43,574 nucleotides of DNA, taken from Nitrospina sp. (GTDB lineage: Bacteria > Nitrospinota > Nitrospinia > Nitrospinales > JACRGP01). Below the pieces are notes generated by a model. That model was not told the DNA's origin and searched no databases. It saw only the letters and a program-made list of their open reading frames with translations. Every line of letters starts with the position of its first letter. Within the stretch, counting starts at the first letter, position 1. Below, in pieces: positions 9,216 through 14,525 of this stretch. Both the position numbers and the translations under genes were made by a program. The DNA lies in assembly GCA_024648695.1 (NCBI GenBank), contig JACAVV010000037.1:1-43574 (forward strand), in the 5' to 3' direction.

Positions 9216-9242
9216 TAAAGTTCTAAGTATTTTGGCCGATAG
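9216..9242 (+). promoter_or_regulatory. Sigma-28 promoter P1 (flagellin 1, distal)
   Basis: TAAAGTTC, an 11-nt spacer, and GCCGATAG match the FliA/SigD consensus (TAAAGTTT-N11-GCCGATAA) in 14 of 16 positions. It starts 16 nt after the cytidylyltransferase stop and lies about 485 nt before flagellin 1. Confidence 0.85.
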
Positions 9243-9301: not shown

Positions 9302-9328
9302 TTATCGGAAAAAACATGAAGCCCTTTA
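9302..9328 (-). promoter_or_regulatory. Possible sigma-28 promoter on the minus strand
   Basis: Read on the minus strand, TAAAGGGC (9328-9321), an 11-nt spacer and TCCGATAA (9309-9302). It would direct transcription leftward, antisense to the cytidylyltransferase gene. The -35 is weaker than in P1-P4, but the -10 and spacing are exact. Confidence 0.45.
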
Positions 9329-9377: not shown

Positions 9378-9404
9378 TAAAGTCTTAAGGGTTTTTTCCG
9401 ATAA
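9378..9404 (+). promoter_or_regulatory. Sigma-28 promoter P2 (flagellin 1, proximal)
   Basis: TAAAGTCT, an 11-nt spacer, TCCGATAA. P1 and P2 also share a TAAG start of the spacer and AAGGCAAT downstream, so they look like a tandem duplication. The leader from P2 to flagellin 1 is about 315 nt, AT-rich and without a credible gene. Confidence 0.85.
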
Positions 9405-9710
9405 AGGCAATACGGGAAATATTTTCCTGAAATAATATCTAGCAATTATTATGCTTATCTGACTTATCGGCCAGTATCATGAATAACAATATGACAAAAA
9501 AGGCGAGAAATAAAAATGAGTCAAAAAAGGAAAAAAGCTTATTGTTTAAGGTTTTTTTTCGTTAAGTCAGATAAGAAGTAAATTGACAAAAAATTAGTTT
9601 AATTAACACTTTACCTAATCTGCTTAACGGTATCTTTTCAATATACTTTAGTTTTGCAAATCGACCGGATACTGAATAATTTTTTAAAGGAACAAACTTT
9701 TTTTAATAAA

Positions 9711-9727: not shown

Positions 9728-10585
9728 ATGCCAGTTCGAATCTTCAACAACATCACATCGTTAAATGCGCAAAGAATTTTAGGTGACAATAACCAACGAT
9801 TGTCTACTTCAATTGAACGAATTGCATCTGGTATCCGGATCAACAGAGGGGCGGACGATGCCGCGGGCCTGGCGATATCAGAAGCTTTACGGTCAGATAT
9901 CAGGGCGCTTCGGCAGGCGGTAAGGAACGCGAATGACGGAATTTCCCTGATTAATGTAGCGGAAGGGGGCTTGAATGAACAATCAGGTATTCTTATCCGT
10001 CTTCGGGAGCTTTCTTCTCAGGCGGCCACCGGTACGGTGGGTTCCACAGAACGCGCGACCATCCAATTGGAGTTCAATGCATTGAGAAATGAAATCGACC
10101 GAATTTCTGCGACTACGGAATTTAATGGCCAGGCTCTTTTAGATGGATCGTTGGCTTCAAGCGTCACTTCGGACAATCAGATTTTAATTCAAATTGGAAT
10201 TGACAGTACGGCCAATAGTCGGATCAATTTGAACCAGCAGGTCGATTTGCAGGCGATCACCTCGTCCAGCCTGGGAATCGATACCCTTTCTGTAACTTCG
10301 GCAGGGGGCGCATTGACCGCGCTTGAATCCATCAACTCCGCTTTGGCGGTAGTGACCCAGGGCCGAGGTCAAATCGGTGCGGTTCAAAACCGGTTGGTCC
10401 GTTCTATCAGTAATATTTCGATTGGAGTGGAGAATCTGCAAGCGGCGGAATCTGAAATTCGAGATGCGGACATTGCCGCTGAAGTGGCATTGCTCACAAG
10501 AAATCAGATTTTGGTGCAATCGTCTACCGCTGTGCTGGGTCAGGCAAATTTGTTGCCGCAATCGATTTTGCAGTTATTGGCATAG
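9728..10585 (+). CDS. fliC: Flagellin 1
   Basis: A 285-residue flagellin made only of the conserved D0/D1 parts, with almost no D2/D3 insertion. The N-terminal coiled region runs from MPVRIFNN through RIASGIRINRGADDAAGLAIS to LRELSSQAATGT, and TEFNGQALLDGS follows. The C-terminus has RDADIAAEVALLTRNQILVQSS and ends in LLPQSILQLL, typical of the export and polymerisation helix. It is exported by the flagellar type III apparatus and forms the filament. Two sigma-28 promoters lie upstream and the Shine-Dalgarno sits in a hairpin loop. Flagellins 2 and 3 are close paralogues; this one lacks their 11-15-residue central segment. Confidence 0.95.
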   Translation: MPVRIFNNITSLNAQRILGDNNQRLSTSIERIASGIRINRGADDAAGLAISEALRSDIRALRQAVRNANDGISLINVAEGGLNEQSGILIRLRELSSQAATGTVGSTERATIQLEFNALRNEIDRISATTEFNGQALLDGSLASSVTSDNQILIQIGIDSTANSRINLNQQVDLQAITSSSLGIDTLSVTSAGGALTALESINSALAVVTQGRGQIGAVQNRLVRSISNISIGVENLQAAESEIRDADIAAEVALLTRNQILVQSSTAVLGQANLLPQSILQLLA

Positions 10586-10617
10586 GAAGCATAGATTTAA
10601 ATTCAACGTTACAAAGT

Positions 10618-10647
10618 AAGGGAGTCCGAAAGGTTTCGGACTCCCTT
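10618..10647 (+). terminator. Strong hairpin after flagellin 1
   Basis: AAGGGAGTCCGAA and TTCGGACTCCCTT form a perfect 13-bp stem with loop AGGT, 33 nt after the stop codon. No U-tract follows, so it may terminate weakly or protect the 3' end of the mRNA. Confidence 0.65.
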
Positions 10648-10740
10648 CAACCTACCAGACAACACCCCAATCCGCATTGACTTCCTGAAAAAAATCAGGA
10701 GGCTTACCCGGTTCTGCGCGAAAAATAAAAAATCAAAAAC

Positions 10741-10767
10741 TAAAGTTTAACCCGGCCCTACCGATAA
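10741..10767 (+). promoter_or_regulatory. Sigma-28 promoter P3 (orphan leader)
   Basis: TAAAGTTT (perfect -35), an 11-nt spacer and ACCGATAA. It drives a leader (features at 10913 and 11015) that is not followed by a recognisable flagellin. Confidence 0.85.
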
Positions 10768-10912
10768 CAGATATGAGGCTAGGAATAAGCTAAGAAAATG
10801 AGGCAAACATATAAGTCCTGTATTTTCTATCGGCAATGGAGTGAAATGCCTTGATAGCTTTTTCTACCCATTTATTTCCAGGGCATGACCAGGTAATCGA
10901 TTGCCCGGATGG

Positions 10913-10977
10913 TTTTCAGCGGGAGGCTGAAAGTGTTATTGGCATTTTTCGTACTCAAGGTGGAGGAAAGAAAAGTG
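10913..10977 (+). repeat. Orphan flagellin leader, duplicate of the flagellin 2 leader
   Basis: Hairpin TTTCAGC-GGGAG-GCTGAAA, then ACTCAAGGTGGAGG and a GTG at 10975. The same order, spacing and largely the same bases occur at 11391-11454 directly before flagellin 2. The sequence after this copy does not encode flagellin. An open frame of 120 codons runs from the GTG to 11337, but it spans sigma-28 promoter P4 and GC-rich hairpins and looks non-coding. Confidence 0.7.
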
Positions 10978-11014
10978 AAGGGGCTCATCCTAAAACCAGA
11001 TCAAATCCCTTTTT

Positions 11015-11064
11015 GGGCGGTTCGAGGAAATCCCCGAAAGAATCGCCCCCCGACCCCGGGGGGC
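11015..11064 (+). terminator. Terminator-like hairpin with an alternative upstream stem
   Basis: GCCCCCCG (11045-11052) and CGGGGGGC (11057-11064) form an 8-bp stem with loop ACCC, followed by AATTATT. A competing stem pairs GGGCGGTTC (11015-11023) with GAATCGCCC (11040-11048) and shares four bases with the first. This would end a P3 transcript after about 290 nt. There is no long U-tract. Confidence 0.45.
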
Positions 11065-11219
11065 AATTATTCCGCTAATGCCGGAACCCGTTCCCCTTCC
11101 CCAATTTTATTTTATTTGCCTGATTTAGCATATAAATTCAGGAAAAATATTGTGTGTGGTTTAAAGGCCAAGTTGACCGTTGGGCACACAAACTTGGAAA
11201 AATTTGTACAAAATAAAAT

Positions 11220-11246
11220 TAAAGTTAAATTCCAACCATCCGATAA
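11220..11246 (+). promoter_or_regulatory. Sigma-28 promoter P4 (flagellin 2)
   Basis: TAAAGTTA, an 11-nt spacer, TCCGATAA. The leader to flagellin 2 is about 200 nt. Confidence 0.85.
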
Positions 11247-11294
11247 CGGAAATAAGGTAAGAATTGCTCTGAAAGAATTAAACGTCATTTTAGG

Positions 11295-11311
11295 CTTATC
11301 TTACTTATCGG
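11295..11311 (+). repeat. Copy of the flagellin-upstream motif
   Basis: CTTATCTTACTTATCGG differs from the copy at 9454-9470 in one base. Its TATCGG begins 66 nt after the CCGATA of P4. Confidence 0.75.
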
Positions 11312-11314
11312 AAT

Positions 11315-11443
11315 ATGAGTGGAGGCTCATGAGGTAAAAAACAAGTGGCATGGTGGAAACCGCCACGTGACACAAGTGTTTCCAGACAAATTTTCAGCGG
11401 GAGGCTGAAAATCTTAAAAACATTTCCATACTCAAGGTGGAGG
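11315..11443 (+). promoter_or_regulatory. Flagellin 2 leader with three GGA-loop hairpins
   Basis: In order: ATGAG-TGGAGG-CTCAT (11315-11330); GTGGC-AT-GGT-GGAA-ACC-GCCAC (11345-11366, a stem with a 2-nt bulge and a GGAA loop); ATTTTCAGC-GGGAG-GCTGAAAAT (11390-11412, 9-bp stem). The Shine-Dalgarno TGGAGG follows at 11438-11443. Successive hairpins with GGA in the loop plus a GGA-bearing Shine-Dalgarno are the known layout of CsrA/RsmA-regulated leaders. Protein binding is inferred. Confidence 0.6.
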
Positions 11444-11451
11444 TAAGGAAA

Positions 11452-12348
11452 ATGCCAGTTCGAATCTTCAACAACATACCCTCGTTAAATGCACAAAGAA
11501 TTTTAGACACGAACAATGACCGTCTTGCTCAATCGGTAGAGCGAATTGCATCCGGTATCCGGATCAATCGTGGTGCCGATGACGCCGCAGGCCTTGCTAT
11601 TTCGGAAACTTTGCGATCCGACATCCGGGCGCTCCGTCAAGCAGTTAGAAACGCAAACGATGGAATTTCCCTCATCAATGTGGCCGAAGGGGCCTTGAAC
11701 GAACAAGCCGGAATCCTGATCCGATTGAGAGAACTGGCTTCCCAGGCATCAACAGGAACGGTTGGTTCGACAGAGCGACAGACCATTCAGTTGGAGTTCG
11801 ACGCACTTCGAAACGAAATCAATCGTATCGCCGCAACTACTGAATTCAACGGACAAAACCTGATCGATGGTTCTTTGGGGTCCACAGTTGCCGCTGACGC
11901 CCAGATCTTTATTCAAATCGGTATTGACAACACAGCTGACAGCCGGATCAATTTGAATCAACAGGTTGATTTGCAATCGATCACCTCGACCGCTTTGGTC
12001 ACGACCGCTTCGGCCAATCAGGTGACAGTGGGCACGACTTTGGAAAGCTTGTCAGTAACCTCTGCGGCGGGGGCTTTGACGGCTTTGGAATCAATCAACG
12101 AATTCATTTCGACGGTAACCGCCAGCCGGGGTAAAGTGGGTGCGGTACAAAACCGTCTAGTTCGAACGATCAGTAACCTCAACATCGGAATCGAAAACCT
12201 GCAGGCCGCGGAATCTGAAATCCGTGATGCAGACATCGCCGGTGAAGTTGCCTTACTTACCAGAAACCAGATTCTGGTTCAGTCTTCGACAGCTATGGTG
12301 GGACAAGCTAATTTGCTCCCTCAGTCAGTGCTTCAGTTATTGAGTTAA
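11452..12348 (+). CDS. fliC: Flagellin 2
   Basis: A 298-residue filament subunit with conserved D0/D1 halves (MPVRIFNNIPSLNAQRIL; ASGIRINRGADDAAGLAIS; RDADIAGEVALLTRNQILVQSSTAM; LLPQSVLQLLS). It resembles flagellin 3 most, sharing a short central insertion containing NQVTVGTTLESLSVTSA that flagellin 1 lacks. The start at 11452 is fixed by homology and by TGGAGG 8 nt upstream; an in-frame GTG at 11437 overlaps the Shine-Dalgarno. Promoter P4 and the hairpin-rich leader precede it. A double hairpin with a strong terminator follows. Confidence 0.95.
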   Translation: MPVRIFNNIPSLNAQRILDTNNDRLAQSVERIASGIRINRGADDAAGLAISETLRSDIRALRQAVRNANDGISLINVAEGALNEQAGILIRLRELASQASTGTVGSTERQTIQLEFDALRNEINRIAATTEFNGQNLIDGSLGSTVAADAQIFIQIGIDNTADSRINLNQQVDLQSITSTALVTTASANQVTVGTTLESLSVTSAAGALTALESINEFISTVTASRGKVGAVQNRLVRTISNLNIGIENLQAAESEIRDADIAGEVALLTRNQILVQSSTAMVGQANLLPQSVLQLLS

Positions 12349-12705: not shown

Positions 12706-13605
12706 ATGGTAAGAATATTTAACAATATTCCCTCTCTCAATGCCCAGAGAATATTGGGAATCAATAACGAAAGGCTTTCGACCTCAATCGAAAGAATTTC
12801 TTCCGGTATAAGAATCAATCGGGGTGCAGACGATGCGGCGGGACTCGCTATTTCCGAAGCTCTGCGTTCTGATATCCGCGCCTTGCGGCAAGCGGTAAGG
12901 AATGCCAGTGACGGTATTTCTTTGATCAATGTTACAGAAGGTGCCCTCAACGAACAATCGAACATTCTCATCCGCCTTAGGGAATTGGCCTCGCAAGCGG
13001 CCACCGGTACCGTTGGATCCACGGAACGTCAAACCATCCAATTGGAATTCGACGCGTTACGCCGGGAAATTGACCGTATTGCGGCTACTACCGAATTTAA
13101 CGGTCAGCCTCTCATTGATGGTTCTTTAGCGTCAACCGTGCCCGCCGATGAACACATCCTCATTCAGATCGGTATCGATAATACGGCAAACAGCCGAATC
13201 GATTTGAATACGGAGGTCAACCTGACTCCGATCACTGCCTCCGCTTTAACCGTGGGACCCAACACTACAGCCAATAATGTTACGGTTGGCACCCGTTTGG
13301 AAGAATTATCCATCACAGCGGCGGCGGAAGCATTGACAACCCTGGAAGCGGTGAATGACTACCTGTCGCAGGTAACATCGGCCCGTGGTAAAGTGGGCGC
13401 CGTTCAAAACAGGTTGGTACGAACCATTGCCAACTTGTCCATTTCGATTGAAAACCTGTCCGCCGCGGAATCCGCCATTCGGGATGCCGACATTGCGGAA
13501 GAGGTGGCGTTACTCACTCGAAACCAGATTCTGGTGCAGGCCGCTACGGCTATGGTTGGGCAGGCCAACCTGCTCCCGCAATCGGTTCTTCAATTACTAC
13601 AGTAA
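12706..13605 (+). CDS. fliC: Flagellin 3
   Basis: A 299-residue D0/D1-only flagellin. It starts MVRIFNNIPSLNAQRILG, one residue shorter at the N-terminus than the others. SSGIRINRGADDAAGLAIS, LRELASQAATGTVGSTERQ, TEFNGQPLIDGS and the C-terminal RDADIAEEVALLTRNQILVQ are all intact. The central segment carries VGPNTTANNVTVGTRLEELSIT, a longer version of the insert in flagellin 2. The gene is preceded by a distinctive hairpin leader and has its own probable sigma-28 promoter. Flagellin 4 follows 65 nt later with no promoter, so both are likely co-transcribed. Confidence 0.95.
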   Translation: MVRIFNNIPSLNAQRILGINNERLSTSIERISSGIRINRGADDAAGLAISEALRSDIRALRQAVRNASDGISLINVTEGALNEQSNILIRLRELASQAATGTVGSTERQTIQLEFDALRREIDRIAATTEFNGQPLIDGSLASTVPADEHILIQIGIDNTANSRIDLNTEVNLTPITASALTVGPNTTANNVTVGTRLEELSITAAAEALTTLEAVNDYLSQVTSARGKVGAVQNRLVRTIANLSISIENLSAAESAIRDADIAEEVALLTRNQILVQAATAMVGQANLLPQSVLQLLQ

Positions 13606-13624: not shown

Positions 13625-13681
13625 ATGAATTGGATAACCGAGCTAATCCAGATTTTGGAGGACAAACAATATGCCAATTAG
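13625..13681 (+). CDS. Possible 18-codon leader peptide overlapping the flagellin 4 start
   Basis: ATG at 13625 opens an 18-residue frame (MNWITELIQILEDKQYAN) that ends 8 nt inside flagellin 4. TATGGAGATG precedes it at a usable distance. It contains the flagellin 4 Shine-Dalgarno (TTGGAGG), so its translation could couple to flagellin 4. There is no comparative evidence and it may be chance. Confidence 0.25.
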   Translation: MNWITELIQILEDKQYAN

Positions 13682-14525
13682 AATTTTTTCCAACATTTCA
13701 TCCATTAATTCCCAAAGGCATTTGGGAAATTCGAACTCGATGGTGGGTAAATCCCTTGAACGGATTTCCTCGGGAATCAGGATTCGAACCGCGGCGGATG
13801 ATGGAGCCGGATTGGCAATCACGGAAACCTTACGGGCGGATGTTCAGGCCTTGAAACAGGCTTCACGAAACGTTAATGATGGTATTTCCCTGATTCAAAC
13901 CGCAGAAGGAGCCCTCAACGCAACGGCCGGTATGTTGATTCGTTTGCGGGAGCTGGCATCGCAAGCGGCAACGGGAACCATCGTTCAACGGGAGCGTGAC
14001 AGTATTCAACTGGAATACAATGCCTTGTTGACGGAAATCGACCGCATCGCAGATACGACCGAGTTCAACGGACAAAAGTTGATCGACGGAACTCTGGCGG
14101 CGGACGCTTCTGATGAAATAATTATTCAAACAGGAGTGACCACCGATATTACGGACCGGGTCAATCTGAACGAACAATTGGACATCACTTCCGTGACCGC
14201 GGCTGGGTTGGGATTGGATAACTCCAACATCTCCTCCCAGCAAGGAGCCCTGGATTCCATGGATGCCCTGCAAGGCGCCATTCAGACTTTGGTTGATATT
14301 CGGGGGCGGGTGGGTGCTACTCAAAATGAGTTGACGCGTACATCCCGGACCCATGCGGTCAATGTCGAAAATTTTACATCGGCGGTATCAACTATCCGCG
14401 AAACGGATGTTGCGGAGGAGTTGGCGTTTTTAACGCGAAACCAAATCCTGGTTCAATCGGCTTCATCCATGATTGGCCAAGCGAACCTGATTCCACAGTC
14501 GGTATTGACCCTGTTACAGGGTTAA
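13671..14525 (+). CDS. fliC: Flagellin 4 (divergent)
   Basis: A 284-residue flagellin, the most divergent of the four. The shared frame is kept (MPIRIFSNISSINSQRHL; RISSGIRIRTAADDGAGLAI; LRELASQAATGT; TEFNGQKLIDGT; ELAFLTRNQILVQSAS; LIPQSVLTLLQG), but GADDAAG has become AADDGAG and the stretch after LASQAATGT reads IVQRERDS instead of VGSTERQT. The middle is the shortest of the set. Divergence from three near-identical neighbours suggests a specialised position, such as the hook-proximal part of the filament. This role is inferred. It is probably in one transcript with flagellin 3 and flaG. Confidence 0.93.
   Translation: MPIRIFSNISSINSQRHLGNSNSMVGKSLERISSGIRIRTAADDGAGLAITETLRADVQALKQASRNVNDGISLIQTAEGALNATAGMLIRLRELASQAATGTIVQRERDSIQLEYNALLTEIDRIADTTEFNGQKLIDGTLAADASDEIIIQTGVTTDITDRVNLNEQLDITSVTAAGLGLDNSNISSQQGALDSMDALQGAIQTLVDIRGRVGATQNELTRTSRTHAVNVENFTSAVSTIRETDVAEELAFLTRNQILVQSASSMIGQANLIPQSVLTLLQG

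Follow-up and report, generated by a model that had tools for sequence, protein, structure and literature searches.

The gap between the first two of four tandem flagellin genes in a Nitrospinota genome carries a sigma-28 promoter and a flagellin-type leader with two putative CsrA sites, which ends at a start codon that opens no flagellin gene. We estimate at about 50% the probability that this promoter and CsrA-type leader have been retained in the absence of a flagellin coding sequence, with RNA from the promoter (P3) running on into the second flagellin gene, fl2, and binding CsrA. To judge from relatives with the same arrangement, in which the control region is far better preserved than the body that follows it, this element, hereafter the orphan leader, probably functions as a regulatory RNA segment and is more than debris. 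Its transcription, the read-through into fl2, the binding of CsrA, and the titration of CsrA are steps that we infer from sequence comparisons.

The window, i.e., the whole stretch of DNA that was analyzed (43,574 nt), is a contig of genome G000, whose closest relatives are Nitrospinota/Nitrospinaceae MAGs. Its tandem flagellin genes fl1 (9728-10585), fl2 (11452-12348), fl3 (12706-13605), and fl4 (13671-14525) are followed by FlaG, and the orphan leader lies in the fl1-fl2 gap of 867 nt. The features of this gap and its downstream gene are:

10741-10766, + strand: P3, sigma-28 promoter of the orphan leader, TAAAG-N15-CCGATA (exact pattern match)
10767-10974, + strand: orphan leader, 208 nt, with transcription predicted to start near 10773 (architecture and length as in the fl2 leader)
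10913-10933, + strand: GGA-loop hairpin TTTTCAGC-GGGAG-GCTGAAAG, putative CsrA site 1 (covariation, fold, match to model R1)
10957-10966, + strand: Shine-Dalgarno sequence AAGGTGGAGG containing GGA, putative CsrA site 2 (identical to fl2 11434-11443)
10975-10977, + strand: GTG start without flagellin, opening a 120-codon frame to 11337 (no Pfam match)
10978-11219, + strand: body beyond the orphan start, with no flagellin homology and not alignable to the relatives' body (sequence comparison)
11015-11048, + strand: alternative stem of 9 bp, 11015-11023 with 11040-11048 (pairs verified; constrained fold)
11045-11064, + strand: GC-rich hairpin of 8 bp without a U-tract (enforced fold)
11220-11245, + strand: P2, fl2's own sigma-28 promoter (exact pattern match), missing from the equivalent place in G003
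11391-11411, + strand: GGA-loop hairpin of the fl2 leader, counterpart of the orphan hairpin (sequence match)
11452-12348, + strand: flagellin fl2, next gene downstream of the orphan leader (Pfam Flagellin_N and Flagellin_C)

P3, which the initial annotation had called as a sigma-28 promoter, matched the pattern without exception. Exact matches are rare in the 4.2-Mb genome (15, versus 5 for a reversed-pattern control), and the flagellin cluster holds 6 of these 15. The distance from promoter to start codon is 234 nt for P3 and 232 nt for P2. The sigma-28 promoter of the orphan leader has the correct spacing, as expected of a sigma-28-dependent transcript. Reading the two promoters against each other, we observed that P3 and P2 have all 11 of 11 motif positions in common while only 7 of the 15 spacer positions agree, which indicates that the window copy is not recent in that part.

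Further sigma-28 sites belong to fl1, for which two tandem forward sites (9216-9241 and 9378-9403, + strand) flank a perfect match on the opposite strand (9303-9328, − strand). In addition, an inverted copy of the −10 box CCGATAA, reading TTATCGG or CTATCGG, follows four sigma-28 −10 boxes of the cluster, each at a distance of 65 to 66 nt (at 9302-9308, 9464-9470, 10827-10833, and 11305-11311); a similar ATCGG occurs ~68 nt downstream in the orphan leader of a relative, G001.

The 3′ part of the orphan leader duplicates that of fl2, as had been noticed from the sequence at the outset. Its last 64 nt are 82% identical to the 3′ end of the fl2 leader (E = 8e-10), and over the full repeat, 10913-10977 corresponds to 11391-11454 at 82-84% identity, with the stem TTTTCAGC/GCTGAAA(G/A), the loop GGGAG, and then AAGGTGGAGG common to both. 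The spacing is nearly equal as well: The two GGA motifs are 40 nt apart in the orphan and 39 nt in fl2, and the second lies 13 nt from the start in both. In a 299-nt fold, the sampled pairs of the orphan hairpin had probabilities of 0.93-0.98. The number of GGA motifs in these 299 nt (7, with 5.6 expected) was not above chance, and the window gave no Rfam match. The homology between the orphan and fl2 leaders ends at the start codon, and the 245 nt that follow the orphan GTG matched flagellin no better than shuffled sequences did, at either the nucleotide or the peptide level, in agreement with the initial annotation of a start codon lacking a flagellin.

GGA-loop hairpins ~30-50 nt before the start proved common in the flagellin leaders of this order, 47% of which contain a hairpin of at least 7 bp with a GGA loop, versus 1.7% of shuffled sequences. 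Across 15 leaders, which were picked because the hairpin is present, 97.5% of the stem cells were paired and 14 cells had changed on both sides, a result reached in 0 of 500 shuffles. We built a covariance model, R1, from 24 flagellin leaders of other genomes, excluding the window sequence and all orphans, and ran it over five whole genomes. In G000, the best matches were the leaders of fl3 (E = 1e-9) and fl2 (2e-4), followed in third place by the orphan leader (10912-10975, E = 0.0012). As the next match (E = 0.017) precedes a gene of unknown function and then flgM, R1 seems to recover flagellar leaders even at this score. This further element of the same type (L251 1501-1559, G000:C12:64715-64773) consists of GGCAGGATGCC and then GGAGGA, and the gene behind it is a 147-amino acid open reading frame.

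The genes csrA and fliW are neighbors on a different contig of the same genome (G000:C55), and they are adjacent in the other genomes checked as well. Together with the covarying GGA-loop hairpin, they make CsrA a good candidate for the binding protein. The comparisons show that flagellin genes of Nitrospinota carry leaders of predicted CsrA type, in genomes that have the csrA-fliW pair; we found no report of such leaders on Nitrospinota flagellins in the open-access literature.

Evidence for the retention of an orphan leader came from G001 and G003, two species of a sister genus whose fl1-fl2 gap likewise holds a comparable orphan leader. Here, a sigma-28 promoter is followed by a leader with TTCAGCGGGAAGCTGAA and AAGGTGGAG, an ATG with six flagellin-like codons (MEVRVFS), unrelated sequence, and the fl2 leader. 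The remnant MEVRVFS suggests a lost flagellin as the likely origin of the orphan leader in the sister genus; in the bodies themselves, a search for leftover flagellin sequence gave none. Between the two species, the leader is 91% identical, its hairpin-Shine-Dalgarno part 89%, and the 22 nt that begin with the start codon 100%, compared to 67% for the body, 72% for the upstream intergenic sequence, and 63-73% (about 69% pooled) for the four-fold sites of their flagellins. The leader plus the first 22 nt (91%) thus stands apart from the body (Fisher p = 2e-8) and from the four-fold sites (p = 3e-12). Moreover, the three positions that differ in the orphan stem are all still paired. Decay evidently had time to act on the body, and yet the leader stayed; on this sequence evidence, the orphan leader in the sister genus is kept by selection after the loss of its coding sequence. 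For the window's own lineage, a similar constraint would follow from the promoter motif, hairpin, and ribosome site, which are intact while the P3 and P2 spacers agree at just 7 of 15 positions.

Whether the orphans of the two genera share one origin is a separate matter. The window orphan leader is strongly similar to its own fl2 leader (z = 18) and weakly similar overall to the orphan leaders of G001 and G003 (z about 4), so the orphans may have arisen by gene conversion or in separate events as well as by common descent. R1 scored the G001 and G003 orphan leaders poorly (13.4 and 11.2 bits). Trees of the flagellins and of neighboring genes were tried as an orthology test and set aside: The flagellins evolve in concert within genomes, those of G001 and G003 grouping within their genus, and the neighbor tree was weakly supported.

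A flagellin gene at the orphan position in close relatives, the outcome that the initial annotation had named as speaking against it, was not found in those compared. In a third genus (G002), no orphan leader occurred in the 800 nt visible after fl1. This stretch of ~800 nt (L046), which reaches the contig end, is GC-rich and repeat-like and has no sigma-28 site. Flagellin gaps of 740-880 nt were also inspected in other families of the order; none of these contained an orphan leader, most had a FlaG-like gene, and a few held other sequence. FlaG-like genes in these families thus lie between two flagellins (L047, L049, L050, L054, L055, L057, L060, L072, L073, and others) and not only behind the cluster. 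A 30-nt match in G051 sits within a peptidase-like coding region and was discarded as chance, and a search of genome contigs for further relatives returned members of the same family and none that were new.

Where the P3 RNA ends separates the first alternative from a read-through into fl2. The initial annotation had pointed to a GC hairpin competing with an upstream stem; both structures exist and are mutually exclusive, and the enforced GC hairpin is favored over the alternative stem (−29.8 versus −24.0 kcal/mol), within a 96-nt stretch that folds ordinarily (z = −1.7). With P3 and the CsrA-type element intact and a strong 8-bp hairpin at the right distance, the RNA could be a discrete sRNA, about 290 nt long and dependent on sigma-28, that ends at this hairpin and acts as a CsrA decoy in trans. 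The hairpin 3′ of fl1 (10617-10648) likewise has no U-tract, such that hairpins of this kind might terminate here. However, the GC hairpin lacks a U-tract and is missing from the list of the forward-strand terminator scan, neither it nor the competing stem was recognized in relatives, and the relatives' gaps show no forward-strand terminator. The body is not alignable between genera, and two clear CsrA-type sites are few next to the multi-site decoys of the CsrB type. We therefore consider the discrete sRNA unlikely. The ~290-nt transcript of the initial annotation found no support, while its broader proposal, an RNA made with the flagellins that titrates the leaders' binding protein, is partly supported, CsrA being a good candidate for that protein.

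In G003, a 33-nt deletion in the fl1-fl2 gap (L043, compared with L042) removes fl2's own promoter and leaves P3 intact. From this loss and from the relatives' gaps free of forward-strand terminators, the P3 RNA probably continues into fl2, and in G003 P3 probably drives that gene. The retention of P3 where P2 was lost would also suit a simpler explanation, in which P3 just serves fl2 as an extra promoter further upstream and the leader does nothing as an RNA; tandem sigma-28 sites are, after all, found at the window's fl1 as well (9216 and 9378). A promoter, however, has no need of 91% identity over a 200-nt leader, of 22 nt at 100% identity beginning with the start codon, or of a hairpin that stays paired through changes, and this explanation accordingly appears rather improbable. 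Hairpin, ribosome site, and start are conserved more than promoter activity alone would call for, which suggests a function at the RNA level, most likely CsrA binding.

We give still less credence to the explanation that the element is the debris left by a flagellin gene, in which decay has yet to reach the control region, or else a recent duplication of the fl2 leader. The ATG and six flagellin-like codons that remain ahead of unrelated sequence in the sister genus, as well as the 82% identity between the 3′ part of the window leader and that of fl2, would fit such an origin. Yet plain debris is disfavored by a leader that remains at 91% between G001 and G003 despite a body at 67% and four-fold sites at about 69%, and a recent duplication by P3 and P2 spacers that agree at 7 of 15 positions while every motif position is common. 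The decayed flagellin that the initial annotation had offered as its second possibility thus survives as the likely origin in the sister genus but does not suffice as a description of the element, in which the leader is constrained and the body is not.

The frame that begins at the orphan GTG (10975-11337) reads across the fl2 promoter, and its 120 codons exceed the expected length (P about 0.003). That the GTG opens a real, fast-evolving small protein gene, as the frames of 67 and 76 codons in G001 and G003 and a SEYxWR ending reached in the window and in G003 might suggest, is very improbable, because a one-base difference between G001 and G003 after the seventh codon makes their frames differ, in every frame the substitutions in their body fall evenly on the codon positions and the peptides are no more similar than under permutation, there is no Pfam match, and the SEYxWR ending can be accounted for by RNA conservation of the fl2 leader, in which it lies. 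The codon-position and permutation tests thus led us to reject the small protein suggested by the SEYxWR match and indicate that the G001/G003 body is not a protein gene.

In the tandem-leader arrangement that we favor, the P3 RNA would be made together with the flagellins and would most likely cross the unconstrained body into fl2, P3 serving as a distal promoter and the two leaders lying in tandem. The orphan GGA hairpin and the GGA-containing ribosome site would bind CsrA, and the RNA would take up CsrA that is otherwise free to repress flagellin mRNAs. This effect may be confined to fl2 or extend to the mRNAs of all flagellins; the sequence is compatible with both.

In the hag leader of Bacillus subtilis, CsrA has one site in an upstream hairpin and a second that covers the Shine-Dalgarno sequence, and FliW acts as the CsrA antagonist. 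Together with CsrA and FliW, this leader serves flagellin homeostasis (PMC6529632), and it belongs to an intact gene, whereas the window leader is an orphan. In Campylobacter jejuni, the flaA leader is a target of CsrA repression and also titrates CsrA (PMC4894983). The orphan resembles flaA in having a GGA at the ribosome site downstream of a GGA-loop hairpin, in the CsrA-FliW circuit, and in the proposed titration; it differs in GGA spacing (40 versus 21 nt) and in lacking the flagellin coding sequence, the flaA leader being part of an intact flagellin mRNA. Of the hallmarks of hag/flaA-type leaders, the orphan thus has the GGA-loop hairpin, the GGA over the Shine-Dalgarno sequence, and a genome with csrA and fliW, and lacks the downstream flagellin. 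In Escherichia coli, the sigma-28-dependent sRNAs UhpU, MotR, FliX, and FlgO come from untranslated regions and are tied to flagellar genes (PMC10578931); they mostly act by base pairing, whereas the window element looks like a protein-binding leader. The proposed sequestration of CsrA is akin to that by CsrB/CsrC and RsmY/RsmZ, but in those cases the RNA is a dedicated one and has many GGA hairpins, whereas the orphan has two clear sites, no Rfam match, and no clear terminator.

Proteobacteria offer well-known examples of CsrA decoy RNAs, and in a few cases an mRNA leader also acts as a decoy. The origin of such decoys is seldom visible, and here a leader has apparently been preserved by selection after its coding sequence vanished. 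It is conceivable, if somewhat doubtful, that a flagellin gene shed its coding part and that its leader was kept as a dedicated CsrA-binding RNA, made only alongside the flagellins. If so, what was once a protein gene would now regulate its former sisters as an RNA.
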